Source: Tubiluchus corallicola (lineage: Eukaryota > Priapulida > Priapulimorpha > Priapulimorphida > Tubiluchidae). Taken from it: DNA of 64,000 nt. The notes under the pieces were generated by a model. That model ran no database searches. It was not told the DNA's origin and was given only the letters and a program-made list of their open reading frames with translations. The stretch lies in contig JAQGDQ010000692.1 of the NCBI GenBank assembly GCA_030141605.1, positions 1-64,000 on the forward strand, given 5' to 3'. Positions 4,617-39,878 of the stretch are shown piece after piece. How positions within the stretch are numbered: position 1 is the first letter of the stretch; each line of letters starts with the position of its first letter. A program made the position numbers and the translations under genes.

Positions 4617-4800
4617 GTTCAATTTCAATTTATTTATCTCTTTATAATGTTACAATAAAACATGATTAATAAAAGAATCTCTAATAAGTTTTGAAAAATG
4701 GTTAAAATGTATACATGTAGATAGATTTAGAACTAGAGAAAGGATAGCGAAAAGACTATAAAGTCACGTAGTCTGCTATCCTTTACTGAATATAGATAAA
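4617..4800 (-). mobile_element. Non-LTR retrotransposon 3' tail with hairpin
   Basis: Read on the - strand, the segment ends in a GATAAATAAA motif followed by short TTGAAA-type repeats, as LINE 3' ends do. About 120 bp before that end lies a hairpin at 4739-4784: outer stem AAAGGATAGC / GCTATCCTTT and inner stem GACT / AGTC. The same architecture with co-varied bases occurs in the tails at 7320-7364, 22850-22894, 23393-23434 and 23871-23920. No reverse transcriptase remains here. Confidence 0.6.
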
Positions 4801-6370: not shown

Positions 6371-7280
6371 AAAGAAAGAACTAAAGAAAAAAAGACTTAT
6401 TATATTGAATATTATCGATAATATTGAGTGAAAATAGGGGGTGCTGCAGCCCCACAGCCGCCATTGAGCAAGCATAAAATCAATATTAGAAGTAGTGTCA
6501 GTATACTCAGTCCAATGCCATCATAGTACAGCAAATAATCATTTGGATTACACAGGAATGAACACCTTTTCACAAATTTGACGACGAAGCCATTTTGATC
6601 TCGAGTGATTTCTTCTTTAGAGTTTTGCCAAGAACTAAGATAGGCAACCCAGCCCAATACAGTTGAAAACTCACAGAAATAATTATCAAGCCATGTTTAC
6701 ATTGCATGAATGCATTGGAAAAAATGATTGTTAATACTTTTGGGCAAGTTTGTTCATGAGGTAGCTAGCTTGTTTGGAAAAAAAGGAAAGATCCTTAAAG
6801 TTTATAAGTAAAGTAATACAGTGATCTACGTATAACTGGAACACCTCTGAACCGGAAAACTTGTTCGAGTTATGCGAGTTTACGAGTTAGACAATATTCG
6901 TAAGAAAAGAAGATGAAGTCACTCATCAACGTCAGGCAACACATTAGTAACACTACAGCATGTGAAAATGACAAATTGAGTGTTTAATCAAATATCAAAC
7001 AACAGTTTTTTTATGAATAATCAAAAATAAAATGACTGGTCCACCTCTACTGTAGTCTGAGTAGCAATGTTAATAGAATTCGGCAGTAATAATATTGTGA
7101 TCTACATTAAACCACGTTCGTTAAGCCGTGTTGTGTTCAGCATTCTGCTAAGGTCATACAAGAAATCTTAGCACTTTTGCTGAAAACTAGCAGTTAAAAT
7201 CATAATGTGGTGCACACTTTTGAGAGGGATTTCTCATGTGGGAGATCGTTCGAGATAAGCAGGGTAATTTCAGTTACGCA

Positions 7281-7760
7281 AAGTTATAATACAATTAATT
7301 TGGAAACAAAAATGTGAAGAAAGGGCAGCGAAAGACCAATTGGTCATCTAGTCAGCTGCCCTTTGGTTAGTCATGAACATTTTTATAAGCGCTATGCTAC
7401 AGTGTATTAGTGTTAGTACTACTTATAATAAAAACTAAATTGTTACGAATGACATTAAATTGATATGCTTATAACGTGTTAGTACAATTCATGCACAGTA
7501 ATAATAAGTGCATAATAAAAAAAATCAAACTGAAAATAACTGAAATAAAACTGAACTGAAACAAGAACTGAAATAAAAATCTGACAACAGAAACATAATA
7601 ACAATGGAAGTTAAATTTACTTTATAACACAAGCATAATTCTTGGACATAAGCAAGCGAATGTATAATGGAGTCATAATATATCATAATAATGTCAAAAA
7701 TTACAGAGCGATTTTTGATGATCTGAGGTAAAATAAACACACAGATAGTTAAAGCACATA
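7281..7760 (-). mobile_element. Non-LTR retrotransposon 3' region with hairpin, inverted relative to 22480-22970
   Basis: About 480 bp here are the reverse complement of 22480-22970 with scattered differences, so this is a dispersed element in opposite orientation. On the - strand it contains the hairpin at 7320-7364: outer stem AAAGGGCAGC / GCTGCCCTTT around GACCAATTGGTC. Apparent hydrophobic frames are chance translations of AT-rich sequence. It ends about 30 bp from the PRCP stop codon and could supply part of that gene's 3' UTR. Confidence 0.7.
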
Positions 7761-7791
7761 CAAAAGCTCAATTAAACATCATGTACTTATC

Positions 7792-13700: not shown

Positions 13701-16700
13701 GGAGCTACTTTAAAATTGGATTTTCAGGCTTCCCAGCCTCCTAATACAAAGTATAAACCCTCCATGCTTGAAGGACCCTAGGCTACAGCCTATACTAGCC
13801 TATAGGATAAACCAGCACTGCAAACCGGGCCCCAGAAAGTGCAGTTATGCCACAACTGATAACAGTGATTTTGAACCAACAACTAAGTAAGAAATAGGTT
13901 GATTTTATACCTTAATTGGCCAAGCAGGAAGTGGCATTAGAAAGTTAGTCGAGTATGGATAATTTGCCATCGCTAGGTTCCCGTATATGCCGCTCAGCCA
14001 GGACTTTAATGTGGCTGCATCTACTTTTGATTCTAGTGGTTTACAAGTGCGCATGGCTTCCGACAAGAACTGCAAACCAGCTTCTGAAACAGGTATTGAA
14101 AAATGTAATTAACTCATTTATCTTTGAAGTATTATTTTTACATAGCTCGACATTTTGTAAAGTGGCCTAGTTAGCTTACCCTAATACCAAGGATAATTTC
14201 CAAGATAAGACAGTGAATAAACTTTTTCACAGTTTCAGGGATTAATGATGACCGTGAAAAGGTCAAAGGTTAAGTGTAATACACAACGCATTTGTGTACA
14301 CTTGACAACACCTTGCAGCCCCTGCTGTTGTAATAGTAACAGTTTTAACAGCTAGCTAGAACCTTACCTAGTTTATTTTTTCTTGTTCCCAAGCAAGATC
14401 CGGCTAGGAAAACACTCTGCGCACTCACTAATGCATAATTGAGTAAAGTCCAGGTAAATCAACTGAAGTTACTGAACTGACGTGGCAGGCGGCCTCACTT
14501 TACCCACGTAACGGTTGTAAGTGAGATGCATTGCTGTGGTACACTTAGCCTTTGACCTACAGTAACTGCGCATGCGCACAGCGAAACTGCGAAAGGCTTA
14601 TTACCAGAGGTGTCCCAGCCATATTTGGACACACGTATATCTCTGTCTCAAAGAAAAAAAGCTAGGGCCACTATGGAAGATGAAGCTACCCAGAAACAGT
14701 TTTCTTGGTGGTCATATTACTGAGCAGATTTAGCATTGCTTAACTTTGGTTGCTAAGTATACACAGCTATCGCTTGACTGTTGCTCTAATTTCAAATGTT
14801 ACCAACACCCATTTTTCTTTCCCTCTCTTTCCCTCTTCCCCCTTCCCTTTCCCTTTTCATAAGATAACTAAAAAATGTGGGAAAACAAAAGATAAACAAA
14901 CTAAAATCAATTTTAAAAGCTTAAAGGACAAGTACGCACTAGATTCTGCGAGGTTATTTATCGCCGTCCACGAGTTACGAACGCTGTCGGCACAATTTTT
15001 GCCAGAGCTTGCAAAATCGTTGGTGACTATGCGGTTGAACACATAACATGGAGTGTAGCCAGGAAACTGTATGACTGGCGCCGATGCAGCCAACGCACTG
15101 AAGTACCAACATAAAAACAACCAGCCATTAACATCTGACGTGACATTTTGAAACAATTTTTAGAAAAGAGGCTAGCAATATTAAAAGAAAAACAGAACAC
15201 AAATTCAGAGCAAAAGTCAATGTACGATTTAAAATAAAATATAAAATATTGTTTCCTTTTTAGGAGTGACTTACAATGGAAAATTATCATTTCAGAAGTT
15301 AATATATGTTTAGTCCAGGGGTGTACAAATTATCTGACTAGCCGGGCCACATGAAACTTTCCCGCAATTCCTGCGGGCCACAGGCAGTTTGATCAAGGAG
15401 CCAAGTAGAGAAAGGCCTAATAACGATTTTTTTGCATCCGACCTGCGTACATCATTACTACTACACTCAAGAAACTATTTTAGAAGTTATTAAAATTTAT
15501 ATTACAAACCATATATTTCTACTTTCACGACAGATAGTGGTAATTTCATTACAATGCATATTAGTAATGTGTATCACACAGTCTGTGTAGTACAGTGACA
15601 TTAAGCTACAACCGTCTTGTAAGGGTTAATGGCATCCGATCTAGTAGAAAAAACTACCTGCACTATCTTTGGGATCGTGGCACAGACTTCAGCTGGATAC
15701 GCTCAATTAATCGCCCGAGCCGCACTTTCATTAGGTTGACAAATCTTTTCGCGGGCCGCACAAATTCTCTCGGCGGGCTGCAAGTGGCCCGCGGGCCGCA
15801 ATTTGCACACCCCTGGTTTAGTCCTTAAGTCTTTGCAAGTGAAAAACAAAATCAGTGATTTAACTGAAGCAAAACCGGACTTAATCTAAAACTGCAGATA
15901 AAAACAATCTACTCTTTAAACTATTGAAAGAATTATTACCACACAAACACTATTTCGCGTTCGCGCCAACAGTTCTTCACTACTGTTACATGCATTTCGC
16001 CATTCGCTAGTAGACGGGCACTAGTGCCTGCATTTCGGAAAAGGTTACACAAAAAACAGGTGCTGTACCTCTCAGTTCAGAGGTGTTTGACAACTCATCT
16101 GTGACACAGCGGTAAATTTGAAATTTGAATTTTTATCTTAAAACATGCCTTAAAACACTTTTAGAACAACACACTGAATGTCTTACAGTAGCATTGTACT
16201 TCTCTGTGCCTAAACTCAATCATAACGAAGTGACTGAACAACAACTTCAAAAATGATTTTCACACAGTCCCCATGTACAGCTAAACTACAACTAGCTTTA
16301 CCATAAGTATGAAATCAACATGAAATAACAAAACAAAGTTAAAATAATGTTTTTTGCACTACCATGAGAAGCAGGCAACAAATAATAGATCACAAAAATT
16401 AAGATTATCAATAGTCATACCCTACTACCACATGTGGATATTTAATTCTCAGCCAAGCGGCCAGCATTCCACCGTAAGAGCCGCCGAATGCGACTACGGG
16501 GCTGTTCTGTGCACCGGGGGTTGACGATTTGATGTGCTCCACCAAAACTGCATAATCTGCGAGCGCTTGCTCCGACGTGAACGGACCCAAATGCTTCGGA
16601 TCCTACGGAATAAAAAGACACTCGTCGAATTAAATCGAGTTTCTCTTCATACACTTAGGCAATCTACGCAAACGGGTGTAGTGAGACCAGAACTTATATT

Positions 16701-19700
16701 GCTACCATTTCGTCTAAATGGGACACTGGAGCAGGTGAAGTAGTTTGGTCACATATGGTTGCATATACATCTTCCCTCTACGAGGTAAATAACCATGAGC
16801 AATGAAATCCGCTGCTCACCTTTCTATTCACTGGCCGGGCCTGGCACAGCTTAACTTTGCAGAGGCAGATGCAGGATTTTCGAAAGGGATGTGACCTAGC
16901 TTAAAGCCCAGGAAACCAGGTTCACCGGCCGCTCAACTACGGTGTCTGGGAAAAATGCATTTTACTGAACCTTGTGAAGCATATCTGTTGATAGAACTTT
17001 AGAAGTGAATAGTAAATTTTTTTGAACATTTGTGTTTGAGTTTGTAAGTTACACGGATGAGAATGACAAATTGCAAAAAATTCTGAAACAGGCCGGGGTT
17101 TTGGGGCCGCGTAGACCATAGAGAACCTCCAAGTGGACTTAAAATATCAATTACCTTGTTTCATGCATAATTTAAAATACCCAACTATCAAGGATACATT
17201 ATAACCTAATTGTCTCAAAAACGCCTAAGTACTGGCCGCTCCTATGCAAAATTATATAAAAATGTCTGCAATTGACTCAAATAACTCCGCACAATTGATT
17301 CTATATTTTTATACATAGAGATATACACGTGGTTACACTGATGTACGTGATATAAACAAAGTGACGACCTGCCAACTAGCGGTCAGCTTGTGAAATAATG
17401 TACTGGGTCCGTAAAAATTTTCTCAACGAATTTACCTGATTTACAAAAATGGCACTACTGGTCTTCCAAAAACTCGGAATTCCGCGTATCCGCGCAAAAT
17501 TCTCATTCCTGAAGTTATTATTATTATTTTATTATCATTATTTATGGATCATTGCAGCTCGAATATAACCAAAAATCACAACAAAATACAATTATTTAAA
17601 TTACGCAAATTAGTTCCAATACTAAAGGGACAACATAGTGCAGCATATCATACAGTACAATAATGTAAGTGTAAACATTAGTACTAAACTTTACGTACTT
17701 ATAACAATAACAATAAACAGAATGTTCAAAATTATAAAAAAACATTACGAGTTTTGGTAGGGATGGAAGCAAGTTTTAAAAGTAGTTAAGTGCTCACCAT
17801 GCAGCATCTATTTCTTGTTGACAAACTATTATGTAGTTTAGTAACTATGTTAGTACACTTCTGTTAAATTTTTGTAATTATATATGGAATTTTTTCCCTA
17901 ACTATATCATGCTATAGTATACTAATGTAGTTCTGTTACAATTATTGCAACTATATTTCATTTTCTAGTTATAGGGCATAATAGTTAAAGATAATAATGC
18001 AAATTGTAATGTAAAAATACATGCTGAAGTGATAATAAATTACAATTACAATAAATTACAATTACAATAAGTTAAGGTGCATTTTCAACTTCAAATGTCA
18101 TAGGGGCAACTTTATTACTCGACACGTAATTTGGGCCGCAATTTGCACACCCCTGCTTTAGAACAAAGTCTCTGCCACTAAACGAAGGCACGATATTCAG
18201 TCTTAATTCAACATTGAATATTTTATAACTTCACACTGGCCCTCATAATTGCAGAAGAGTTATTTACAAAATTATTTACCTCGTACGACGCGTTTCCGTA
18301 CGGCATCGAGTTCCCGTAATAACGATGTTCGGCAAAAACAAGCATGGCTTTAAACTGTGGTGCAATGTCAAACATGAAACCCTATAACAAATTTGAAATG
18401 ATAAAGGTTCGCTCGTTGTTGAAATGTTCGCTCGTAAAAATTGTTTAAATTGTACATCTAATTCACTTTGTGTCATTTTTTTCCTCTCACTTACATCTTT
18501 ATATCATATTTCAGTTACTGTACTTTCTTGAACTTTGTCTAAAAACCATTGAGTGCTTTTTCTGCACATGTGCTTCAACTTAGTTGCTTCTGTACTCAGC
18601 CCTCATATTCTGGAAACACTGTCACAAATTCACTCAAGTTAAAGAACATTGAGTGCTTTTTCTGCATGTGTGCTTCAACTTAGTTACATCTGTACTCAGC
18701 CCTCATATTCTGGAAACACTTTCACAAATTCACTCAAGTTTAAAAACATTGAGTGCTTTTTCTGCATGTGTGCTTCAACTTAGTTACATCTGTACTTAGC
18801 CCTCATATTCTGGAAACACTGTCACAAATTCACTCAAGTTAAAGAACATTGAGTGCTTTTTCTGCATGTGTGCTTCAACTTAGTTACATCTGTACTCAGC
18901 CCTCATATTCTGGAAACACTTTCACAAATTCACTCAAGTTTAAAAACATTGAGTGCTTTTTCTGCATGTGTGCTTCAACTTAGTTACATCTGTACTTAGC
19001 CCTCATATTCTGGAAACACTGTCACAAATTCACTCAAGTTAAAGAACATTGAGTGCTTTTTCTGCACGTGTGCTTCAACTTAGTTGCTTCTGTACTCAGC
19101 CCTCATATTCTGGAAACACTTTCACAAATTCACTCAAGTTTAAAAACATTGAGTGCTTTTTCTGCATGTGTGCTTCAACTTAGTTACATCTGTACTTAGC
19201 CCTCATATTCTGGAAACACTTTCACAAATTCACTCAAGTTAAAGAACATCGAGTGCTTTTTCTGCACGCGTGCTTCAACTTAGTTACATCTGTACTTAGT
19301 CCTCATATTCTAGAAACACTTTCACAAATTCACTCAAGTTGAAAAAACAGGAATTGTGAATCATATTATATTACTAGACAGTGTGAGGTCATTCGTTCAA
19401 AATGTACATTACAATAATTAATGCAGTGCCAAAACATGAAATCATGCATTTGAAATATATAATGCATTACTTTAAAATGTCATATATCACTGTAGGAAAT
19501 ACAAAATCTGATTATCTATGTAAGATTCTTGTTCATAAATAGTACAACATATATTATGAAGTAAAAGTTATTTATAAGAAATCTTTAGTTTCAAAGACTT
19601 TTATAAATTTGTATCTTTTATTAATTGAAAACAGTTAATACTGCCTCCTTTCACATGGTCATACAACCGCTACAAATTCATTAATCTTTAAATAAGAGCA

Positions 19701-22700
19701 AACGCGTAAAAGACACCATGGTCGTACGTTGCCCTCACATTTGGCTCACTTCCATTACTTCTTTTATCTTATTACTGTGTTCACCCATGTGTGCGAAATA
19801 AATGATCTATTTATCTATCTAAAAAAAAGGAAAGTCAATCTTTTTAAGTAAGACGAATAAATGTCCATTTTCATAACTTTCAAGCAATAAAGGCAAGAGA
19901 AGAGTGTTAAAAATAATAAAACACCTGCCTGCAGTTTTCCTTGGTCTTCCTTTTTAAAATTCGTCACAAGACGTTTCATACTGCAAAGGCATTTGGCATA
20001 TGGAAAGTTGATTGTTTTATACCCAGACAAGCGAATACCAAAATGCTAAGTTTGTGATTCAAGATATCACAGTGCTGCTCAAACTTTAGCTTGCTTTTTA
20101 CCTATCCTACGTCCACTGTCACCTTAATTGCAACTAGAAAATTTAACAAAGCTATATAAGTTAAGTTACTGTGTTTTCCATGAAGAGCACAATGTCGCCT
20201 TCATTGCCGGTGTAAAGAAAAATGGGTCCACCTTCATGGTCCCAATGGTCATCATTGACTAAGTATCGAAGCTGGAAAACATCATCATTGGCAAAGCTAA
20301 AATGATCCACCTAAACAAAATATGATATATAATTAGAAGCTGAAGCTGAGTCAGTTGCTACTACATCAGTTGACTCACACAGTAAATCAGCTAGCTCGGC
20401 TGAAGCTGAGTCAGTTGCTACTACATCAGTTGACTCACACAGTAAATAAGCTAGCATGGCTGAAGCTGAGTCAGTTGCTACTACATCAGTTGACTCACAC
20501 AGTAAATTACCTAGCTCGTCTGAAACTGAGTCAGTTGCTACTACATCAGCTGACTCACACAGTAAATCAGCTAGCTCGGCTGAAGCTGAGTCAGTTGCTA
20601 CTACATCAGTTGACTCACACAGTAAGTAAACTAGCATGGCTGAAGCTGAGTCAGTTGCTACTACATCAGTTGACTCACACAGTAAATCAGCTAGCTCGGC
20701 TGAAGCTGAGTCAGTTGCTACTACATCAGTTGACTCACACAGTAAATCAGCTAGCTCGGCTGAAGCTGAGTCAGTTGCTACTACATCAGGTGACTCACAC
20801 AATAAATCAGCTAGCTCGGCTGAAGCTGAGTCAGTTGCTACTACATCAGTTGACTCACACAGTAAATCAGCTAGCTCGTCTGAAACTAAGTCAGTTGCTA
20901 CTACATCAGCTGACTCACACAATAAATCAGCTAGCTCGGCTGAAGCTGAGTCAGTTGCTACTACATCAGTTGACTCACACAGTAAGTAAGCTAGCATGGC
21001 TGAAGCTGAGTCAGTTGCTACTACATCAGTTGACTCACACAGTAAAAATCAGCTAGCTCGACTGAAGCTGAGTCAGTTACTACTACACCAACTGACTCAC
21101 ACAGTAAATCAGCTAGCTTGGCTGAAACTAAGTCAGTTGCTACTACATCAGCTGATTCACACAGTAAATCTTGTCTTGATTACAGACGAATTAATACCAA
21201 AACAACAAAATAATCACCATACGTGAGACTAACGTTGCCCATTTGTGTACTTAATTTTGAATTGACCAGCTTTCTCGTTCAAAAATTTCTAAAATTTAAT
21301 GGCTCTGCCAGCACACGCACAATCTGACCGCGAATCCACAATGCGTTAGCCATATTTCAACAAGTGATTTGCAGTGTCAAGTGATTATTGCAAAAGCGAA
21401 AATCTTCGCAGCCGGCAAAAATGTCGGCCAGCTCGACTCCCAATCACTGAGTGGCCGGCGCGACTAAAGCTGGGTTCCTTAACCTAGGTCGCCTGTAGAA
21501 ACAAACCGGCTGGCGCTCAGCTGAAACGACGCGGCTCTGGGCTCTATATATAAATAACCAAAAAATACCATTGTTTCGTGTGAATTTTTAAAGGGCTATA
21601 CCTGAAAAGGGGTACCTGGAATAGGTTTCAGAAAAATCACCTTAAAAATTATGTTACTTTATAGTAATTTTATGCATGTATCGTACTCGCGTTGAAAGAA
21701 TTTTTTGTTTTCATTTTAAATCTCCCGTAATACTGTTCCAACCGCACCATTACATGACGTCATATACGCACAACGTAAATCAGGGGAAGAAAACGAAATG
21801 TTAAACTATGTCCTAGAAAACTTTCCATGCAAAGTTATGTTGCTTAACATTTCGCTTACCTGTTTGAAAGACTTACGTAACTAGAAAAGAAAATTATTAA
21901 TTATTTAAAATGCTTTAACCAATTGGTAAAATGTCATTGACTTACCTTCAAGATACATCACTCACTAACAAAAAACACATTTTTATCTTATTGAGCAGAT
22001 GCAGTAATTAAAATTTTACTTACTTAGTGACATGTGCGCTACGAATGCTCTGATTATTTTTTCAAACTTTAAACAATGTTTCTAAACTTGTTTCAAATAA
22101 CTTATCGTCGAAATGGCAGCATCTAACAGTCATCGCGGGAGTTTAAATTTACATGTTTTATACAGCGTTACTGCCGACGCAAGCCCTGCATGCAAAAAGA
22201 CAGTATGTTATTGGTATAAAATTTCAAGACAAATTTTTTAAGCTTTATTACACTCAAGCCGTAAGTAGAGATTTATCTTAAATAAAGCTGCATGTACACT
22301 CTAATTAAGAAGAGCAATGCAAAAGCATAAATTTCAGTAATACTGTATAAACTACTGTATCATATAATTCAGGTAGCATACTAGCTACACTAGACTTTCG
22401 TCAAATTTCCACTTTATTTTGTTTATTCTGAGTTTTCTTTATCTGTCAATCTCCTCATGCAGTCATACAGGTAATTTTTTGTGCTTTAACTATCTGCCTA
22501 TTTATTTTACCTCAGATCATCAAAAATCGCTCTGTAATTTTTTACATTATTATGATATATTATGACTCCATTATGCATTCGCTTGCTTATGTCTAAGAAT
22601 TATGCTTGTGTTATAAAGTCTATTTCAGTTGCCATTGTTATTATGTTTCTGTTGTCAGATTTTTATTTCAGTTATTTTCAGTTTGATTTTTTTTTTATTA

Positions 22701-24505
22701 TGCACTTATTATTACTGTGTATGAATTGTACTAAAACGTTATAAGCATATCAATTTAATGTCATTCGTAACAATTTAATTTTTATATATAAGCAGTACTA
22801 ACACTAATACACTGTAGCATAGAGCTTATAAAAATGTTCATGACTAACCAAAGGGCAGCTGACTAGATGACGAATTGGTCTTTCGCTGCCCTTTCTTCAC
22901 ATTTTTGTTTCCAAATTAATTGTATTATAACTGTGCGTGTGTTACAAGATAAATAAAAAGACTATTATTATTATTTATATTGTGCAGAATATGAACGCAT
23001 CCTTCAAACAACAAGGTATGAAGCGAAGTAAATGAGCTTTCTGTTTCTGGAATATGTGAGTCTTTTAGGTTGTGTAAGTACTCCACATGTAAGAATGTAA
23101 GAATGCCACATGCTTGCTTCACTTTACGCCTATTATTTTTGCTAGAAGGCTGTGTTATATTTATGTTAAACTTTTGTTAGCAATTTATGTTTATATATGT
23201 AGCTTTGATTCAAGCTGTTTTCTTGTTTGCGTTTTGTTTTGCTTAGCTTTGAGCTGATTTTTTGGTTTGCTTTGCTTTGAGCTGATTTATGACTTTTGTT
23301 CGTCTTTGGATCGTTCGATATAAGATATTTACGCTTTGATATTTTTTATTTGCTTTTTCGTTTGCTCCTATAAAAAATTCTATTGCTAAAAAAGGAGCAG
23401 CTGAGTTAGTGACCAATTGGTCTTTTGCTGCACCTACTCAAATATTATTGAAATTTTCTACTTCTAGTCTACATATAGTCTATTTAGTCACATACTCAAA
23501 TTTCACTACATATTTTGTTTGCTCCATTTTTCTGCACTAGTTCTTGCGTTGCATAGTATTTTATCATTACGCTTAATTTGACACGATTGCACATCTTTGC
23601 TTCATTATATTTTGTTTGAGTTTATTATACATATTTTGTTTCTTTCACTGATTTCTGATTTATTATTTTTTTGGTTTGACTTTTTTCTAGTTTTTTGTTT
23701 TAATCGGTTAGTTAAATGTTTACATATTTTGTTAATATTCATTTCATATTTTTCATTTTATTTCTTTGTTGCATAGCTTACTTAGTTATTTTGCTTTCAT
23801 GTTTAATGTATCCCTCCAAAAATTCATGTTAACAGCAGCACCACAAATTTTTTACAATTTTCACTAACCTGAGAAGGGTAGCTGACTCGATGACCAACTG
23901 GTCTTTCGCTACCCTTTCTCCTGCACCCCCTTAACTCTTTCCTTTATGCTTAATTTATCCTTTTTAATCAATAACTAAAAAAATAATAATCAATTTGTAT
24001 GCAGGTGTAAATGAGGAGATAAATAAAAATGTCTATGTCTATGTTCTATAATATAATGCGAAATGAAAGTTCAGGAAATAAAATTAATTGCATTGACTAC
24101 TGATTGAAAATGAACTATTTTTACTACACACAGTCCCAGTTTTAACAACTATATTAGTAGTGGCTAAGAAATCAGGAAGAACTTAATTATGCAGCTGATA
24201 ATTAGTTTTTCTGAAGTACTAAGAAGGGACAATAAATTAATGCGAAGAAATTTATTAAACTGCAAACTTTTCTGAACATTAGTTGCTCATTTATTGTGTA
24301 CAGTAAAAAGAATGAAGAAAATCCCAAGTATTTTCGATAATACAGCCATTTGTACCTGCATCGATATGTATTTCGTAGCATAGTTATACGGTTTGTTATC
24401 CTCAGAAACACCCACATTCAAGTCTTCTATCGCTGAAGCAGGCAGTACCACGAGAAGAAACGTAAATGTAACTATAAAAAATGTGTAAAATTCGCGCAAA
24501 ACCAT
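7792..24505 (-). CDS. PRCP: Lysosomal Pro-X carboxypeptidase (peptidase S28)
   Basis: Nine exons on the - strand: 24356-24505, 20170-20310, 18280-18381, 16421-16602, 14940-15097, 13911-14083, 12263-12427, 10305-10492 and 7792-8035. All splice phases agree and give 500 residues (human PRCP has 496). The start ATG at 24503-24505 opens a hydrophobic signal peptide ending near ALPASA-type residues. Seen features: mature start YISMQVDHFSF, YTGNEGDI, VFAEHRYYG, nucleophile Ser173 in GGSYGG, NYTGQ, Asp425 in NGKLDPWSGGG and His450 in DGAHHLDL; the Asp-His spacing of 25 equals the human one. The enzyme removes residues C-terminal to proline in lysosomes or after secretion. The introns carry several MITEs and three minisatellites, two of them close to exons. 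DPP7 is the alternative in this family, but the sequence reads closer to PRCP. One weak donor (GTGCGT after exon 5) is used. Confidence 0.96.
8112..8740. repeat. Intronic minisatellite, 53-54-bp unit, about 12 copies
   Basis: Units contain TTATGCGCCGGTTAACTGAA and ACTTCTTGAAAGTAAATCAC. They vary at a few positions (CCGG or CCAG, one extra T). The array starts about 75 bp upstream of the last PRCP exon, within intron 8. Confidence 0.95.
9060..9435 (+). mobile_element. Probable non-LTR retrotransposon 3' tail with local duplication
   Basis: A segment of about 106 bp (pyrimidine-rich, with TTACTATTTTTTCCATTC) is present twice in tandem at about 9070-9280. It is followed by a unique stretch that ends GAAATAAACTGATTGATTGATTG, broken here as GAAATAAAC plus (TGAT)n. 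That short terminal repeat is typical of LINE 3' ends. No coding sequence remains. It sits in PRCP intron 8. Confidence 0.5.
9491..9671. mobile_element. Short MITE-like element with inverted ends
   Basis: The left end TTCACACTAGCGAGTTTTC is mirrored by GAAAACTCGCGAGTCTGAA at the right, about 180 bp apart. CTCGC motifs recur inside. No clear target-site duplication was identified. Located in PRCP intron 8. Confidence 0.55.
10564..10977 (+). mobile_element. MITE with CAGGGATGAGAAT ends and 6-bp TSD, copy 2
   Basis: The best-preserved copy: 414 bp, exact ends CAGGGATGAGAAT and ATTCTCATCCCTG, flanked by ATTCTG at 10558-10563 and 10978-10983. It lies in PRCP intron 7, about 70 bp upstream of exon 8. 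Confidence 0.9.
11050..11362 (-). mobile_element. MITE with CATATCTCGGTTT ends, related to 50100-50460
   Basis: The ends CATATCTCGGTTTGCTGG and its near-complement at 11325-11352 define an element of about 310 bp. Read on the - strand, its inside carries AAACAAAGTGACGG, CATCTAGCGGTGAGC and GCGAAACAAC. This is the same core found in the 6-bp-TSD MITE family and in the element at 50100-50460. The target-site duplication is unclear. The open frame across it is not a gene. Confidence 0.65.
14220..14598 (+). mobile_element. TA-flanked MITE, copy 2
   Basis: This 379-bp copy of the family first seen at 1223-1603 starts AACTTTTTCACAGTT and ends CGAAAGGCT, flanked by TA on both sides (14218-14219, 14599-14600). 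It lies in PRCP intron 5. Confidence 0.8.
15316..15815 (+). mobile_element. hAT-type MITE with 8-bp TSD, copy 1
   Basis: A 500-bp element bounded by CAGGGGTGTACAAATT and AATTTGCACACCCCTG, with the perfect 8-bp duplication GTTTAGTC at 15308-15315 and 15816-15823. GGCCGC-rich subterminal repeats and CAGGGG ends are hallmarks of hAT elements. No transposase is encoded. Copies lie at 29064-29532 and 56842-57286. Located in PRCP intron 4. Confidence 0.92.
15868..16215 (+). repeat. Dispersed repeat family (AAAACCGGAC type), copy 1
   Basis: This stretch matches 49263-49660 in the same orientation and 30980-31390 in the opposite one. Shared landmarks are AAAACCGGAC, GACGGGCACTAG, ACAGGTGCTGTACC and TTGAATTTTTATCTTAAAAC. 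A fragment of the family's right part also appears at about 10140-10270. No coding sequence or clear termini were seen. Confidence 0.75.
17052..17511 (+). mobile_element. MITE with CAGGGATGAGAAT ends and 6-bp TSD, copy 3
   Basis: A 460-bp copy starting CACGGATGAGAAT and ending ATTCTCATTCCTG, flanked by AAGTTA at 17046-17051 and 17512-17517. Compared with copy 2 it contains extra sequence near the left end (GGTTTTGGGGCCGCGTAGAC). Located in PRCP intron 3. Confidence 0.88.
18133..18155 (+). mobile_element. Solo right end of the hAT-type MITE
   Basis: The 23 bp ending in GCAATTTGCACACCCCTG match the right terminus of the 15316-15815 element. No left end is found nearby, so this is a deletion remnant. 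Located in PRCP intron 3. Confidence 0.7.
18541..19345. repeat. Intronic satellite, 100-bp unit, eight copies
   Basis: Eight units of 100 bp start near 18546, each with CATTGAGTGCTTTTTCTGCA, TGTGCTTCAACTTAGTT and CATATTCTGGAAACACT. Two sub-variants (AAAGAAC or TTTAAAAAC at the joint; TTTCAC or TGTCAC) alternate, which suggests growth by a 200-bp dimer. It fills much of PRCP intron 2, starting about 165 bp upstream of exon 3. Confidence 0.95.
20335..21175. repeat. Intronic satellite, 60-bp unit, about 14 copies, with paired AP-1-like sites
   Basis: About fourteen 60-bp units, each containing GCTGAGTCAGTTGCTACTAC and TTGACTCACACAGTAAAT. Because 60 is a multiple of three, long open frames exist on both strands (up to about 230 codons). 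They are low-complexity, overlap each other and lack start context, so they are artefacts. Every unit carries TGAGTCA and TGACTCA, the two orientations of the AP-1 consensus, about 25 bp apart. The array begins only about 25 bp upstream of PRCP exon 2 (in the gene's sense), so it may influence splicing or transcription; this is inference. Confidence 0.95.
21640..22100. repeat. Dispersed repeat, inverted relative to 36880-37200
   Basis: Segments around TTTGAAAGACTTACGTAACT and TTTCAAACTTTAAACAATG recur in reverse complement at 36880-37200, with related flanks such as AACAAGTTTAGA. The ends are not resolved. Located in PRCP intron 1. The neighbouring 21176-21640 shows nothing recognisable. Confidence 0.5.
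22480..24055 (+). mobile_element. Non-LTR retrotransposon 3' regions carrying three hairpins
   Basis: 22480-22970 is the + strand counterpart of 7281-7760 and ends in GATAAATAAAAAGACTATT plus (ATT)n. Two further tails follow, the last ending GATAAATAAAAATGTCTATG-type repeats near 24045. Hairpins lie at 22850-22894 (AAAGGGCAGC/GCTGCCCTTT), 23393-23434 (GCAGC/GCTGC) and 23871-23920 (AAGGGTAGC/GCTACCCTT), each enclosing GACCAA..TGGTC-like inner stems. No reverse transcriptase is left, so these are 5'-truncated copies. They sit in PRCP intron 1. Confidence 0.65.
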
Positions 24506-28756: not shown

Positions 28757-30050
28757 TTGGCAATACGTTTTTATGGCAGCGAGATTTTCGGTACTGCAAT
28801 GTTGTTCTAGACGTGATATATGTACATACACGTATAAGTCTATTAGTAGAATGTTGCTGTAACTAATCTGCCTGGACAATTTCCGTAATTTATGTTTAAA
28901 TTTAGTATTGTGTTACGTAGTGATGGGCGATTTTGAAATTGTGTAATTTGATTATAATCTTGTTCTTGCAATTCGATTCGATGCCACAATTAATCTTTTG
29001 TAGTAATTGTTTAGTGTTTTAGCCATATTTTCAAACATTGCAGCACTGAAATATAGCTTATAACAGGGGTGTGCAAATTATCTGACTAGCTACATTAAAC
29101 TTTCCCGCAATTCCTGCAGGCCACGGGCAGTTTGATCAAGGAGCAAAGTACAGAAAGGCCTAATAATGAGTTTTTTGCATACGACCTGCGTACATCATTA
29201 CTACTACACTCAAGAAACTATTTTAGAAGTTATTAAAATTTATATTACAAACCATATATTTCTACTTTCAGGACAGATAGTGGTAATTTCATTACAATGC
29301 ATATTAGTAATGTGTATCACACAGTCTGTGTAGTACAGTGACATTAAGCTCTTGTAAGGGTTAATCGCATCCGATCTAGTAGAAAAAACTACCCGCACTA
29401 TCTTTGGGATGGTGGCACAGACTTCAGCTGGATACACTCAATTAATTGCCCGGGCCGCACTTTCATTAGGTTGACAAATCTCCTCGCGGGCCGCACAAAT
29501 TCTCTCGGCGGGCCGCAATTTGCACACCCCCGGCTTATAAACTTCTTCATGGCTTTCGTCGCTGTCTGCCATTTTTTGTACCTGCAAACTATCTTTACAG
29601 AGCACATACATTCATTAACTACTCTATCACTATGTCAACTACACATACAACCACACATCACTACATCTCAACCACGTGAAAGCGAATAAGAAGCCCCAGT
29701 TTGCAACACTGTTGTTTGCAATTGTGTGCATCGTGTAAGGTGAGAAAAACGAAGAAAAAATGTAAGGGTTTTGTCAGTATGCACATATTTTCTCATTTAA
29801 CTGAATTACTGTTTAATGGCCGATTATATTTGAGTTATACATGGTTGTAATCTCGATTAATTGATTAATCGCCCATCTCTATTGCTGGCAATACGTTTTT
29901 ATGACAGTGAGATTTTTGGTACTGCAATGTTGTTCTAGACGTGATATATGTACATACACGTATAAGTCTATTAGTAGAATGTTGCTGTAACTAATCTGCC
30001 TGGACAATTTCCGTAATTTATGTTTGAATTTATTATTGTGTTATGTAGCA
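28757..30050. mobile_element. hAT-like element between 165-bp direct repeats
   Basis: 28757-28920 and 29885-30050 are direct copies (about 5 percent different), sharing GCAATACGTTTTTATG and TGCCTGGACAATTTCCG. Between them lies a segment starting TAGTGATGGGCGATTTTG and ending GATTAATCGCCCATCTCTA, i.e. GATGGGCGATT-type inverted ends as in hAT elements. It is itself interrupted by the hAT MITE at 29064-29532. No 8-bp duplication flanks the outer element. Confidence 0.6.
29064..29532 (+). mobile_element. hAT-type MITE with 8-bp TSD, copy 2
   Basis: A 469-bp copy from CAGGGGTGTGCAAATT to AATTTGCACACCCCCG, with perfect duplication GCTTATAA at 29056-29063 and 29533-29540. It is nested in the older hAT-like element. 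Confidence 0.92.
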
Positions 30051-31390: not shown

Positions 31391-31589
31391 GGAGTTTATG
31401 TCACCATCACGAATGAGTGTAATTGCATACACGTGAATAGTACTCCAGGCTGTTTCCAGTTGCAGTAACATCCAACGAAGCACCAATCAATTGAAGAACA
31501 GGCATCTGTACATTGGGTGTGGTCAATGAACTACATTTGATAAAATAAGGTTACCTGAACTGTTTATACATACAGAGAAGCCCATTATT

Positions 31590-32220
31590 ACTGAGATCTC
31601 ACTTGAATTAACAGAAAATCAGAGCTGAACTGATTCGTCTTAAGCAGTTTTGAATGAGATCTCACTTGAATTAACAGAAAATCAGAGCTAAACTGATTCA
31701 TCTTAAGCAGTTTTGACTGAGATCTCACTTGAATTAACAGAAAATCAGAGCTAAACTGATTCGTCTTAAGCAGTTTTGAATGAGATCTCACTTGAATTAA
31801 CAGAAAATCAGAGTTGAACTGATTCGTCTTAAGCAGTTCTGACTGGGATCTCACTTGAATTAACAGAAAATCAGAGTTAAACTGATTCGTCTTAATCAGT
31901 TCTGACTGAGATCTCACTTGACTTAACAGAAAATCAGAGCTGAACTGATTCATCTTAAGCAGTTCTTACTGAGATCTCACTTGAATTAACAGAAAATCAG
32001 AGTTTAACTGATTCATCTTAAGCAGTTTTGACTGAGATCTCACTTGAATTTACAGAAAATCAGAGCTGAACTGATTCGTCTTAAGCAGTTCTGACTGAGA
32101 TCTCACTTGAATTAACAGAAAATCAGAGCTGAACTGATTCGTCTTAATCAGTTCTGACTGAGATCTCACTTGAATTAACAGAAAATCAGAATTAAACAGA
32201 TTCGTTTTGAACAGTTTTTA
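31590..32220. repeat. Tandem repeat, 63-bp unit, ten copies
   Basis: Ten units of 63 bp with GAGATCTCACTTGAATTAAC and AGAAAATCAGAGCTGAACTG, differing at a few sites. The unit length is a multiple of three, so a 121-codon frame is open on the - strand; it is a repeat artefact. It lies about 300 bp downstream of the FANCF stop. Confidence 0.95.
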
Positions 32221-32526
32221 ACTACAATGTACATGCAGATAACTTCGACTAACATCCTAGAAAATCCAAATAATTAGAAACGCTTGATGGCTGACTTATG
32301 GACGATTTTGTTATGCGAGCACACACATGAAGTTTCATAGGATTGAATACTTTTGTCTATTTTACAAATGCGTGCCTTGTTGTTTGCTTCATCAAATGCT
32401 CTTCACACCTGCTATATCTTTTCTGGATGATCTTTTACTGCAAGCGATTTTTGGCAATTTCACACCAATGTTCGCAAAAACTGAATAACAGAAAAGCATA
32501 GTAAACTCAGCTTGGACAACAACACG

Positions 32527-35500
32527 TCATGAATTAACAGAACTGATGACTGTCCTCACATCTTTCCACAAAGTGAAATTTTCCTTTGAGCAAAGACGAT
32601 CTAATGTTTCTTTGGTTTCTCCAGAAATGGAAGTGGCTTCGTTGACAGTAAGTGATTCAACATGTTTACACAACATCTTGAACGTACAAGCATCACTAAA
32701 TGTTGCCTTGTCCAGTTGCTTAAGCCTAACCAAAAAAAAGAAGGAATATCAATAAGCCTTTCCACAGTTCCAGGGATTGCTGATGATCATGAAAAGGTCA
32801 AAGGTTAAGTGTACCAGACAACGCCTTTGTGTACACTTGACAACACCTCGCAGCCCAAGCTGTTGTAACAGTAACAGTTTTAGCAGCCAGCTAGAACCTT
32901 AACCTAGTTCATTGTTTCTTGTTCAAAAGCAAGATCCTGCTAGTAAATCACTTTATACACAGACTAAAGCATAATTAAGTAAAGTCCACATAAAACAACT
33001 GAGGTTATTGAACTGATGAGGGACACAGCTTTGCTTTATCCACATGACACATGACGGTTGTAGTTAAGACGCATTGCTGTGGTACACTTAACCTTTGATC
33101 TATAGCAACTGCACGTGCGCACAACGAAACTGTGAAAAAACAACTTCAGATTTACACATCAATCAAAAGTTAGCGAAGCATTATAGTTTTGAGTTTAGTA
33201 ATTTACAGAAAAATATAATTATTGTTACTAAAATTTTGTTGAAAACTGAAAATACCGAGTCTCTCGTTTGTAGAGTTTTCATTTTTTTAACTGTATGTTA
33301 TTGTCACAGTGTTTGAGCAGGTAAATATTATCAGCTATAGTAACTATGCAAAATTTGAGTGCACCAATTAAGGCTCATCCACTAGCAACTTGCTATAGCA
33401 AATTACAATCAATATGATGGATGGTGCTGCCATCTACTGTCAGAATGACTAGTTACATAACGAATGCAGAACAACAGGCTCATCCACTAGCAACCTGCTA
33501 TAACAAATTACAATCAATATGATGTATGGTGCTGCCATCTACTATCAGAATGACTAGTTACATAACGAATGCAGAACAACAAGTGTAAAAGGCCCACGAA
33601 AGTAAAAATCATGCAATCCATTTGTTTCCAAAGTGATTTATGAAAAATTCTACAAGCAGTTAGTCTTACAGACACTCCCAAAAACAGACGACCATATAAC
33701 TCAATTGGAAAGAAGTCAAAAGTTTTTATAGTTTCATCATGAATTGTGTGCATGCTCTGCAAATGTCCATAAGTCGGCAATTAAGCTTTTCTAGTTATTC
33801 GCATATCCTGAATCTCCATTTCATGAGGGTCATTTTGATACCAAGCTCATCACTCTATGTTATTTCTAAGCTGAGATAATCAATGTTGAAGTTGAGGTGC
33901 ACGCTACGTAAGGGCATTGAAAAACATAATCTCCAGAAAATCGCTGCAAAAGTTAGCCATTGTTTTTCGTCGCGTTCCTACAAAACACTTAGCAACCGTA
34001 AAAATGTTGGTTGCCACGGGCTTTGCAAGAACACGTGTTTAAATCCAGGAGATGGCTCTTCCTGACGAAGGTCTGGGCTTCGCAACAGAAAAAAATCCGA
34101 AGCAAAATGACTGCTTCTACGAGCTGCTATCAGAGTTTGAAATTAGGAGTTTCTTTACAATTGCAGTACCAGTTTCTAGTCAGAAAACTGGGGTACGGAG
34201 TTATAAAATTAGATTTTTGTATTTATTGAACATTTTCTTGATAATTTGATGCTACAATATAAAAGTTCAATAGCATTTGTTTTTATAAAAAAAACAACAA
34301 CAAAAAATTGACATTAGACCAAATTTTTTGTGCATTCTGCAATGTTAGAAAATTTTCTATTAAATACAATGGCCCTTACATATGGAATTCAATTGCTCCA
34401 GCTATTAAAAATGCCAACTCGCTTTCCATATTTAAAAAAAATATAAATTAAACTTACTTGAAACATATAACTGATGACTCAATCATGATTTGTTGTTTTT
34501 CATTTTCAAAAACTTGTATAGTATAATAATATTTTTATTACTTCCCACCCGTATTTACATTTGTATATATTGTAATATTGTATCTGTATATATTATAATT
34601 TTTTTCGTAACTAATTCTAGTGGCCTACCATACGCTAGCTTCTTAGGTCTCTAGCGCAATATTCATGAATTGTATCATATTTTTGTATTAACAAAACCTG
34701 ATTATCGTGCACATGTAATGTATATGTATATGTATATGTTTATTGCGAAATAAATCTATTAAAAAAAAGAAGCATCATGGCGTAATTTTAACTGTTCCGA
34801 CTTGTGGATGGTTCTGATTTGCAAACACACAATTATAGAAATAATCCGTAATTATGTACAACTTTCTTGTGCTGATGATTTGAAAACATCATTCTTGAAT
34901 TGAGTAAAGTTTTTTGAGAGTAAACCAATGTCCTCACCGCCACGTCATCTGAGGTGTGCTATAATCAGGGTACATACAATCAGCCATTTCCACTAAAGTT
35001 TTCATATACAAAACATAAAACTCGTGCCACTTAGAAGCCACCGTAGCCAAAGTCTCAAGCGGAACACACCAGAGCCATCTAGAGGAAAAAGGAAATATAA
35101 TTGTACACACATCTCACTTTTTATGGCAAGCAAAAATTTCTGTGCAATTATTAGATGAGTCACGTCATCAGCGATAGCATCAAGAATAGTAGGTAAAATT
35201 AGTGGGGGTGCTCCTTCAGAAAATATTTAGACCTCTTTTTCAATATTGTGTGAAACGAAACAAGACATATGTAATTTTAATGTTGCAAGTTGCAATTGTA
35301 GTTTTAAATGGTGGGAATTATGGAAGTTTATACATAAATTTGATAAAATCCTAAACAAAAAAATATTTTTTGCTTACTAATAGCCAGTTCAAGCTTGATC
35401 CATTCACGGTAAGCATGTGAGAACTGACAACAAACTGTGCAAAGGACAGTACTTTCTCTACCTGGGCTCAGACATGCCATGCGCACAACAGTCAAACACC

Positions 35501-38500
35501 GCATCGCTTTTAAAAGATAATCAGTAATGAGTAATCAGTAACGGATTACACTTACTAAAAGTAATCAGTATGAGTAATCAGTAACAGAGTAATGCTTACA
35601 ATTACTAAAAGTAATCAGTAACTGATTACACTTACTAGAAGTAATTGGTATGAGTAATCAGTAATGGATTACACTTACTAAAAGTAATCAGTATGAGTAA
35701 TCAGTAACGGAGTAACGGTTACCCTTACTAAAAGTAATCAGTAATGAGTAATCTGTAACTGATTACTCTTACTAAAAGTAATCAATAATGAGCAATCAGT
35801 GACGGATTACCCTTACTAAAAGTAATCAGTAATGAGTAATCAGTGACGGATTACTCTTACTAAAAGTAATCAGTAATGAGTAATCAGTAACAGAGTAACG
35901 GTTACCCATACTAAAAGTAATCAGTAACGGATTACACTTACTAAAGGTAATGAGTAATCAGTGACGGATTACACTTACTAAAAGCAATCAGTATGAGTAA
36001 TCAGTAACGGAGTAACGGTTACCCTTACTAAAAGTAATCAGTAACGGATTACACTTACTAAAAGTAATGAGTAATCAGTGACGGATTACACTTACTAAAA
36101 GCAATCAGTATGAGTAATCAGTAACGGAGTAACGGTTACCCTTACTAAAAGTAATCAGTAACGGATTACACTTACTAAAAGTAATGAGTAATCAGTGACG
36201 GATTACACTTACTAAAAGCAATCAGTATGAGTAATCAGTAACGGAGTAACGGTTACCCTTACTAAAAGTAATCAGTAACGGATTACACTTACTAAAAGTA
36301 ATGAGTAATCAGTAACGGATTACACTTACTAAAAGCAATCAGTATGAGTAATCAGTAACGGAGTAACGGTTACCCTTACTAAAAGTAATCAGCAATGAGT
36401 TATCACGACAAATTACTTTACAAAAGTAACGAACCCATCACTGTTAAAGAATAAAGCCTTTACCTGTAAGATTTTGAGCTGCAGTAATCCAGTAACCAAG
36501 TCTTGAGAAAAGTTTCTTTTGAAAGTTTAACATTATCAGTATCAGTGGTATCCATAATGAGATGCAAGACGTTAAAAATAACTTCCTGAAAAGAGTAGAT
36601 ATAAGAATAGTTTTAATAATTTAAGAACGAAAAATAAAATCAAAATGTTAAATGCAAAAATATTGCAAGATTGTATGAAAATGGACAATAGACTTCCTAG
36701 CATTTATTGAACTATGGTGCAATTTATGGCAACTAATCATTAAAGGACAAGAAAGCCATTTATTTACATGAAGCAAAAAAAAATTATTTGAAATTTCGCA
36801 TTACCTACAGATTGTCTTATTGCATACAGGGTTTGCAGTAGTAGAATTCTGTATAAAACTTTAAAATAAAAAAAACAACCATTAGGCACAGCCAATTTGA
36901 TGGCAAGTTGTTTGAAACAAGTTTAGATAAAATTGCGCGAAGTTTGAAAAAATAATCAGAGCTTCCGTAACGCACACGTTACTAACAACGTAAAAGTTTA
37001 AATTACTTTACGTTGTCAATAAGATTAATAATATGTTTTTGGTGAGTCGGTCACACACACTGGAAAGACGAGTCATTGACGTTTTACCAGTCGGTGCGAA
37101 CGTTTTAAATTACTAAGAATTTTCTTTTCTCTTATATAAGTCTTTCAAACGGATAAGTGTAAACCTAAGTAATATAACTTCGTATAGAAAACTTTTTGGA
37201 GTATGCTTCGGTACTCCCTTATCGTCCCTTTAGGAATGAAATATACTAGAAACAAGCATGTTAAAAATACAGAAATATCCTAAAATGTATGAAAACGGAT
37301 ATCAGAATTCTTACCATTTAGTGAACTAGGGTAATTTATGGCGTGCAATAATTAACAATCATAATCATCCACATTGTACAATAATTAACAATCATAATCA
37401 TCCACATTGTACAATAATTAACAATCATAATCATCCACATTGTACAATAATTAACAATCATAATCATCCACATTGTACAATAATTAACAATCATAATCAT
37501 CCACATTGTACAATAATTAACAATCATAATCATCCACATCAATAATTAACAATCATAATCATCCACATTGTACAATAATTAACAATCATGATCATCCACA
37601 TTGTACAATAATTAACAATCATAATCATCCACATTGTACAATAATTAACAATCATAATCATCCACATTGTACAATAATTAACAATCATAATCATCCACAT
37701 TGTACAATAATTAACAATCATAATCATCCACATTGTACAATAATTAACAATCATAATCATCAACATTGTACAATAATTAACAATCATAATCATCCACATT
37801 GTACAATAATTAACAATCATAATCATCAACATTGTACAATAATTAACAATCATAATCATCCACATTGTACAATAATTAACAATCATAATCATCCACATTG
37901 TACAAAAACAATCTCACAAAAATTGAGATATTGTCTTAAAAATGCTGTTAATGTAAGTAAAAGTTTCTTACTAGTCCCCGGGTTTCATTTGCAATGCGCT
38001 CAAGTTTATTCATCAAATATATACGCACCCTGAAAAAAGTATTTAATGAAAATAAGTATTACGGCATTGGCAACATAGTTTATGTAACCTACATTTCATA
38101 CTACGTTGAGATGCATTCATACTATCACTGCTTTCTCTTATAATACTAGATTTTTGCATGAAAATTGTTCATTGTAAATTTTTTAAGAAGTCTGCGAAGA
38201 CAAATCAATTACTATTATTATTGTTAATTCTTTATTAAATGTGGATAACAACAAAATAAACAAATTTAAAATTGTTTCCAAAGTGATACACAAAATAAAA
38301 TAAAGGCAAATAACATTACAGAAACTTTGTACACTGGAAGCTTTAAAACCACAAAAACACAAAATCCAAAGCTTTAGAAATTACACAGTTAAAAAAACAA
38401 TTATAAATACCGAGTCATAAAATCTGTTTTAGAAATTACACAGTTAAAAAAACAATTAAAAATACCGAGTCATAAAATCTGTTTTAGAAATTACACAGTT

Positions 38501-39878
38501 AAAAAAACAATTATAAATACCGAGTCATAAAATCTGTTTAAGAAATTACACAGTTTAAAAACAATTTAAAATACCGAGTCATAAAATCTGTTTTAGAAAT
38601 TACACAGTTTAAAAAAACAATTAAAAATACTGAGTCATAAAATCTGTTTTAGAAATGACACAGTTCAAAAAAACAATTAAAAATACCAAGTCATAAAATC
38701 TGTTTTAGAAATGACACAGTTAAAAAAACAATTAAAAATACCGAGTCATAAAATCTGTTTTAGAAATTACACAGTTTAAAAAAACAATTAAAAATACCGA
38801 GTCATAAAATCTGTTTTAGAAATTACACAGTTCAAAAAAACAATTAAAAATGCCGAGTCATAAAATCTGTTTTAGAAATTACACAGTTTAAAAAAATAAT
38901 TAAAAATATCGTGTCATAAAATCTGTTTAAGAGATTACACAGTTAAAAAAACAATTAAAAATACTGAGTCATAAAATCTGTTTAAGAAATTACACAGTTC
39001 AAAAAAACAATTAAAAATACCGAGTCATAAAATCTGTTTAAGAAATTACACAGTTTAAAAAAGCAATTTAAAATACCAAGTCATAAAATCTGTTTTAGAA
39101 ATCACACAATTTAAAAAACAATTAAAAATACCGAGTCATAAAATTTGTTTTAGAAATAACACAGTTTAAAAAAGCAATTAAAAATACAGAGCCATAAAAT
39201 CTGTTTAAGAAATGACACAGTTTAAAAAAACAATTAAAAATACTGAGTCATAAAAAGCACTCACTGGCAGGGACTACTTGCAGTGGAATGATATGTGGCA
39301 TGCCCAGACCGCCGTCCCGTTATCAAGGAAAACTGAACGGCACAGATAAACTATAATCAGATTTGCAGACAGAAATACCCATTCTAGGCAACCACCCAGC
39401 CATTTAGCAGGTTCGACACTACCTAGCTTTGTTTTTTCAGTGCATGCCATAACCACTCAGCTATTTAGCACATCTGAGCAAATTTTGCATATCATGTAAA
39501 ACAAAACACCCAATTAGCAACTGGTTTTAACTAAAAGTACGCACCTCTCGGTCGTGATGAACTCGAGCAAGTTCTCAATATGTTTGTCCAATAATCGAGC
39601 TTGAGCCTTCATTGCTGATGCCAGCATAGTCGCTTGCAACAATTCATTTCCCGATTCACTGAGCTGGTCGAGTACTTTATGAAGATCACTTGTTGGCTGG
39701 TTGGCAGTCTGGATTAATTCCTACAGTAGAAAACCACATAGACCAAATTACCTGTACTTCCCTTTCATTTAAACTTCTGCTCCCTGTTTGCTTTATGCGA
39801 ACATACTGCCTCCTCTCTCTCTCTCTCTCTCTCTCTCCCTCTCACTTGCTTTCTCTCTCTCTCTCCTTCACTCTCTCT

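Follow-up and report, generated by a model that had tools for sequence, protein, structure and literature searches.

A bipartite hairpin near the 3' ends of related LINEs of Tubiluchus corallicola, a candidate 3'-end recognition element

The window analyzed in this study, a stretch of 64,000 nucleotides (nt) from the priapulid Tubiluchus corallicola (assembly GCA_030141605.1, contig JAQGDQ010000692.1, positions 1 to 64,000 of the forward strand), contains five copies of a bipartite hairpin in the 3' untranslated regions (UTRs) of related long interspersed nuclear elements (LINEs). We found that this hairpin is linked to coding sequence of the LINE protein ORF2 (ORF, open reading frame), that its stems changed in a compensatory manner between families, and that copies truncated at their 5' ends share a common 3' end. 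The hairpin is likely a 3'-end recognition element of the stringent type. By precedent from other LINEs, binding of the ORF2 protein and choice of the template by way of the hairpin are its most likely roles.

The original prediction reported the five hairpins on both strands as copies of one architecture, and all five were recovered at those places (Table 1). A covariance model built from them (R1), which they match by construction, scored them at 65.1-76.4 bits and their opposite strands at 14.6-22.8 bits. In each copy, an outer stem of about 10 base pairs (bp) leads, past a 1-nt bulge and through an asymmetric internal loop, to a 4-bp inner stem capped by a tetraloop. The outer stem is lengthened to about 10 bp by AAA/TTT pairing, and a GA within what had been described as a 9-nt bulge is able to pair with TC of the linker, a possible 2-bp extension. 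Four of the five hairpins fold better than all 200 dinucleotide shuffles, and 3 of 200 shuffles fold as well as the hairpin at 23390. The stem variants had been quoted correctly (outer GGGCAGC/GCTGCCC, GGGTAGC/GCTACCC, and GGATAGC/GCTATCC; inner GACC/GGTC against GACT/AGTC), but two mispairs had been overlooked, namely an outer mismatch in the 23390 hairpin, which carries GCTGCACC where its relatives at loci L142 and L143 read GCTGCTCC, and the inner GACG/GGTC of the 22848 hairpin.

The five hairpins represent four families (F1, F2, F3, and F5), and six families are known in total (numbers beginning with L denote fetched genomic loci). The outer-stem core is GGGTAGC/GCTACCC in F1 (23871), GGGCAGC/GCTGCCC in F2 (7317 and 22848), and GGAGCAGC/GCTGCTCC in F3, which has one mutated mate at 23390 and is intact in L142 and L143. 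F4 has GGGGCAGC/GCTGCTCC with one G-U pair (L131 and others), F5 has GGATAGC/GCTATCC together with the inner stem GACT/AGTC (4736, and L151-L170 with variants), and F6 has GGGATAGC/GCCATCCC (L027), with one mismatch in eight pairs and two further unpaired positions outward. The internal-loop and linker letters TGAC and GTCTTT are nearly invariant between families, and the longer strand of the internal loop is variable (CTAGAT, CTCGAT, CCAAGT, or GTTAGT). Genome-wide, the F1/F2-like core pattern gave 412+394 = 806 matches (at most two mismatches), the GTGAC-type core pattern 269+265 = 534 (at most one mismatch), and the F5 core pattern 149+191 = 340 (at most two mismatches); these counts possibly overlap and were not summed, and the reversed-pattern control gave 0 in each case. 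A loose sequence pattern showed no excess in the window (13 matches against a shuffle mean of 20.6), a loose structural descriptor was discarded after yielding chance folds by the hundred across the window, and the exact pattern of one core had no match in IMG/VR.

The distribution of changes among copies points to compensatory change between families and to a fold under selection. Taken by themselves, the five copies in the window show two-sided change in 4 of 16 pairs, a number reached by 4 of 500 shuffles. Nine representatives of the six families showed two-sided change in 5 of 16 pairs and in 11 of 144 cells, and none of 500 shuffles reached 11 cells. Alignments of 47 and 30 distinct copies contained 29 and 19 two-sided cells, respectively, again as high as in none of 500 shuffles, with the proviso that these statistics ignore kinship (no phylogenetic null). 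By eye, the third outer pair follows a path from G-C (F1/F2) through G-U (F4) to A-U (F3). Common descent of one repeat, with no selection on structure, would also yield copies that look homologous, and kinship inflates covariation counts. We regard this explanation as highly improbable, since 94.4% of the cells pair between families, against at most 61.8% (and two pairs with two-sided change) in slid structures, and since one-sided changes inside families mostly break pairs. This within-family count covered the seven outermost pairs in F1, F2, F4, and F5; 93 distinct copies were kept, and 19 were excluded for having letters foreign to the family ahead of the arm. Among 42 one-sided changes, 30 were pair-breaking, and one of the two two-sided changes was paired. 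Such breakage is expected of changes that arose mostly after insertion, if selection preceded it. Therefore, the fold is kept between families but not visibly after insertion, and compensatory change, proposed as evidence for selection on the RNA before each copy inserted, holds in the larger sets.

The hairpin belongs to LINE 3' ends, and in F1 and F6 it lies downstream of reverse transcriptase (RT) coding. Of the two outcomes that the original prediction had named as refuting it, neither was encountered. In 20 F1 copies with long upstream flanks, similarity stops at many upstream points and the 3' end is common, as in LINE copies truncated at their 5' ends. L012, the longest of the F1 copies read, encodes in one direction a Cys-rich N-terminal stretch and an endonuclease (EN)-like part (-4086 to -3165, counted from about 11 nt before the hairpin), the end of the endonuclease and the RT (-3179 to -1193), and a C-terminal domain (-1233 to -747), so that coding stops about 0.75 kilobases (kb) upstream of the hairpin. 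The RT piece matches RVT_1 in Pfam (E 7.5e-34) and is that of a non-LTR reverse transcriptase; LINE-1 ORF2p and R2 were among its 14 matches to solved structures in the Protein Data Bank (PDB). The N-terminal piece matched Exo_endo_phos below the cut-off (E 0.24), and the alignment to LINE-1 ORF2p starts at its residue 202. RT coding upstream of an F1 hairpin was also found in L009. The expected LINE upstream of the hairpin is thus present, but not as an intact element: the coding of L012 runs in shifted frames, and the copy is broken.

Searches with the F1 ORF2 pieces (tblastn, over the window and the fetched loci) extended this linkage to other families. In L027 (F6), EN, RT, and C-terminal pieces are 35-48% identical to F1 in broken frames, and the C-terminal match stops about 940 nt upstream of the hairpin. 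L031 (F2) contains a C-terminal piece only, with 39% identity; ORF2 of F3, F4, and F5 was not found in this search, which was not extended genome-wide. The hairpin LINEs are probably CR1/L2-like members of the Jockey superfamily. Single-ORF elements with an N-terminal PHD are described for CR1 subgroup 6 and L2 subgroup 4 (PMC4120745). The order of coding in L012 is like that of these elements, and its Cys-rich stretch looks like a PHD by eye; Pfam made no such call, and the F1 copy differs in being frameshifted. A separate LINE in L025, with an open frame of 650 amino acids and an RT 34.5% identical to that of F1, has no R1 match at its own 3' end, ahead of an F1 copy inserted there. The window ORF at 40384-41007 (+) resembles the C-terminus of this frame by reading and is followed by another 3' end (AATAAAGATTATTAT...) with no such hairpin. 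The L025-type LINE is a negative control within the genome.

An AATAAA-like signal follows the hairpin in F1-F5, the five families measured. Counted from GCT in the 3' arm, 7 nt short of the stem end, the median distance to the end of this signal was 119 nt in F1 (signal recognised in 17 of 32 copies), 70 in F2 (22/27), 74.5 in F3 (4/4), 69 in F4 (24/30), and 111 in F5 (14/23). The signal is followed by short repeats characteristic of the family, (TCTATG)n in F1, (ATT)n in F2, and (TTGAA)n-like repeats in F3, F4, and F5. The predicted placement of the hairpin ahead of GATAAATAAA and a terminal repeat was seen directly in three of the five window copies. In the 7317 copy the signal is lost, as family similarity stops at 7276, ahead of it, and in the 23390 copy the tail is displaced. 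The five copies are LINE 3' ends as proposed, but they are not equivalent tails, and the 23390 hairpin is part of a split F3 element. Two of the five belong to one family (F2; 90% identity between 22480-22938 and 7276-7758). The likeness of the F2 copy at 22480..22990 to other copies extends further 5'.

The split of the F3 element is explained by a nested insertion. In L142-L144, F3 is unbroken from the hairpin through ...ctacttctata..attataatg...ggaaataaaat. The window F3 is broken after ttcta at 23466 and resumes with ttcta at 24044, on either side of the F1 copy. With this 5-bp duplication, the hairpins at 23390 and 23871 belong to two elements, one within the other. The F1 tail (23860-24050) was one of 40 scored genome places, itself included, with 93-100% identity. 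F1 is also nested in F6 just past its hairpin (L027) and, in L025, within the terminal (ACT)n of a different LINE; one F1 tail adjoins another in L119, and three hairpins lie within 1.3 kb in L033. Together with window 22480-24095, these clusters of LINE tails make an insertion preference for LINE ends possible. Additionally, in L190 (G000:C649:8700-9500), an F5 hairpin with about 25 nt forms a tandem array (68-749, period 75, 9.1 copies, 97% matches), which is a satellite born from a LINE tail.

These features are similar to those of known stem-loops. In ZfL2-1 and ZfL2-2, retrotransposition is lost when the stem-loop is deleted or swapped, and the stem-loop is bound by the linker between EN and RT of ORF2 (PMC4176376). 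By analogy, the ORF2 protein would bind the bipartite hairpin, with its outer stem of about 10 bp, asymmetric loop, 4-bp inner stem, and tetraloop; the bound hairpin would bring the reverse transcriptase to the short repeats at the terminus, some 60-115 nt further downstream, and target-primed reverse transcription would begin there. The window hairpins are like the L2-clade stem-loops of UnaL2, ZfL2-1, and ZfL2-2 in lying in the 3' UTR ahead of terminal short repeats (PMC4176376), and the one 5-bp target duplication in the window is like those reported for ZfL2-1 (5 bp, PMC4245944). They differ in being bipartite, with an asymmetric internal loop and a longer distance to the end signal. The stem-loops of ZfL2-1 and ZfL2-2 are not exchangeable (PMC4176376), whereas loop and linker letters are largely kept and stems vary between the present families. 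In plant L1-clade LINEs and short interspersed nuclear elements (SINEs), a common 3' hairpin with compensatory changes was described (Ohshima 2012, per PMC3747384). The present hairpins share with it the compensatory stem changes and the kept flanking or loop letters (PMC3747384) but belong to another clade with other letters, and the plant hairpin is shared by SINEs, of which none was seen here. Judging by titles and the beginnings of abstracts, we found no publication on this hairpin; subscription journals and Repbase lay outside the search, and a database entry is quite possible. The kind of element is known, and what we would call new is the bipartite fold common to families with about 40% ORF2 identity (where ORF2 is known), together with the F1 hot spot described below.

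Two other readings of the conserved fold were considered. The hairpin might be kept for another step of the LINE RNA, such as export from the nucleus, RNA stability, or processing of the 3' end by host factors. Its position upstream of the AATAAA-like signal and the near-constant TGAC and GTCTTT, which resemble a protein site, would fit this idea. We nevertheless consider it unlikely, because copies with a recognised signal end in family-specific short repeats rather than poly(A), as in stringent LINEs, and because recognition has a direct precedent (PMC4176376). It is scarcely credible that the tail contains a twister-sister-like or hammerhead self-cleaving ribozyme. Two stems do flank an asymmetric internal loop, and LINE-1 is known to carry ribozyme motifs of this sort (PMC11620745), but the variable longer loop has no conserved CA cleavage site as described in that paper. 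No Rfam family reached its gathering score in the 64-kb window, and with E up to 5 the matches in 22700-24100 were three weak ones, to unrelated families (E 0.75 to 4.6). With no Rfam match to self-cleaving ribozymes and no CA site in the loop, ribozyme identity was rejected.

Several observations weigh against recognition of the 3' end by this hairpin. The number of pairs with two-sided change, five in all three sets, was matched by 28 (nine representatives), 43 (30 rows), and 8 (47 rows) of 500 shuffles. Slid structures in the 47-row set reached three pairs, another slide reached 16 cells against 29, and further pair types were unremarkable in all three alignments (9, 30, and 47 rows). Furthermore, the 47-row and 30-row alignments were fitted to the R1 structure and are hence biased towards it, and related copies share single events, so that manual counting gave five or six independent changes. 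UnaL2 tails are short, and the window-type hairpin lies further from the end, with about 60-115 nt between it and the end signal. A partner SINE was not seen, and the suggestion that SINEs use the hairpin is not supported so far: ARAGORN detected no tRNA either in the window or in any of 24 loci, and no genome-wide search for recurrent heads was made. The RT of the hairpin-less L025 LINE (34.5% identity to F1) is about as close as the lowest piece of F6 (34.7%), and ORF2 distance alone is therefore no marker of the hairpin group. In the tail-binding region of L2-clade proteins (cTBR, between EN and RT), Pro-Trp is followed by Glu and Trp 16 and 19 residues past that Trp (PMC4176376). The Pro-Trp is present in F1 (KPWITPG, counted on the L012 translation), but manual counting placed Phe at both later positions.

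The 5' ends of F1 copies are concentrated at the hairpin. Among 100 matches listed, 37 had F1-like cores, and 36 remained once L080, which is an F2 copy that has a single F1-like base, was dropped. Eleven of these 36 stop 2-6 nt upstream of AGC, within the outer 5' arm, 6 stop 8-107 nt upstream of AGC, and the remainder are longer. The hazard of those 100 nt predicts 0.5 ends against the 11 observed (P ~2e-12, a rough test on hand-entered numbers). The visible flanks of the truncated copies differ, and they therefore look like separate insertions; 8 of the 11 were seen with 23-29 nt of upstream sequence and L063, L081, and L082 with 250-320 nt, and L117 and L118, with 350 nt upstream, agree with truncation in the outer arm. 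A leave-one-out measure gave 8 ends within 7 nt rather than 11, because chance similarity among L051, L081, and L082 runs on for a few more bases, and the count of 11 was kept. In a sample anchored on F1 tails, 9 of 41 rows stop inside the hairpin, in about seven independent events. The ends lie in the inner stem in L116, in L120, L121, and L122 (one shared flank), and in the second piece of L119 (end 282 by script, where it was joined to another copy's tail; tandem by eye), and in the outer arm in L050, L117, L118, and L082, of which L050 and L082 are also in the 36-copy sample. L129, L025, and L014 stop shortly before the hairpin, at most about 40 nt upstream of it. The pieces in L120, L121, and L122 begin at CCAATTGG and may be a spread chimeric repeat or a duplication. 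Copies starting 3' of the hairpin are invisible to these queries.

Truncation at the hairpin was found in 1 of 36 F2 copies, in 0 of 34 F4 copies by script (one by eye, L138, for which the script put the end at 10 nt), and in 0 of 20 F5 copies; the F4 set was partly chosen for core variation. The contrast of 11/36 in F1 with 2/90 in F2, F4, and F5 (Fisher P 1.5e-5, hand-entered table) suggests that the effect belongs to F1. The hot spot may be caused by snap-back of the complementary DNA (cDNA), by a bound protein, or by the annealing pathway proposed for LINE 5' truncation (PMC4245944). That the hairpin acts mainly in DNA or nascent cDNA, where snap-back would end reverse transcription and set the 5' junctions, is very doubtful. 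The F1 ends in both samples would fit such an action, but early termination would harm the element, and F2, F4, and F5 show only a weak hot spot or none. Snap-back thus does not account for the fold in all families, and it was rejected as the general reason for the hairpin. As a tentative extension of 3'-end recognition, which we think rather less than probable, the hairpin could have a double role, recruiting the ORF2 protein in all families and in F1 also stopping reverse transcription after the 5' arm is copied, either because the nascent cDNA folds back on itself or because the ORF2 protein stays on the stem; in that case, roughly one in three of the sampled F1 insertions would consist of the tail alone, at about 180 nt. 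The F1 window copy folds with a longer outer stem.

The window also contains repeats of other kinds. Tandem arrays were found at 18442-19441 (100 bp), 20219-21178 (60), 31459-32325 (63), 35453-36460 (117), 37244-38012 (33), 38336-39302 (~56), and 53658-54546 (31). In addition, a dispersed repeat has three copies on both strands (15316-15788, 29089-29523, and 56880-57286), with pieces 91-98% alike and no R1 match.

Table 1. Hairpins and LINE 3' parts located in the window
Feature	Position	Strand	Remarks
F1 hairpin, outer AAGGGTAGC/GCTACCCTT, inner GACC/GGTC	23871..23920	+	R1 74.1 bits; fold -21.9 kcal/mol, 0/200 shuffles as good
F3 hairpin, one outer-stem mismatch	23390..23439	+	R1 66.9 bits; F3 relatives L142, L143 have GGAGCAGC/GCTGCTCC
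F2 hairpin GGGCAGC/GCTGCCC, inner pair broken (GACG/GGTC)	22848..22897	+	R1 74.0 bits
F2 hairpin, all pairs intact	7317..7366	-	R1 76.4 bits
F5 hairpin AAAGGATAGC/GCTATCCTTT, inner GACT/AGTC, five-base linker	4736..4786	-	R1 65.1 bits
5'-truncated F1 LINE copy, 3' UTR only, inside F3, end GATAAATAAAAATG(TCTATG)n	23467..24043	+	
Target-site duplication TTCTA, left copy	23462..23466	+	by eye against uninterrupted F3; right copy 24044-24048
Displaced F3 tail ttctataatataatg...ggaaataaaattaattgcattga	24044..24095	+	resembles F3 tail of L142-L144
F2 LINE 3' UTR copy, end GATAAATAAAAAG(ATT)n	22480..22990	+	among 40 candidates scored genome-wide, itself included
F2 LINE 3' UTR copy, 3' end lost ahead of terminal signal	7276..7763	-	
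F5 tail, end GAGATAAATAAATTGAAATTGAACTGAA	4610..4735	-	like tails in most fetched F5 copies (L151-L170)

How LINE reverse transcriptases choose their RNA is understood for few elements. At least six families in this one genome share the hairpin, with naturally swapped stems and largely constant loop and linker letters, and together they offer a natural set of mutants. With ORF2 about 40% identical in two families with RT coding, one can ask which letters and pairs the ORF2 protein reads. Additionally, the F1 hot spot makes the determinants of LINE 5' junctions testable in a hairpin-carrying system, and the double role, if true, would give a LINE a means of producing copies of its own recognition signal at the size of a SINE.

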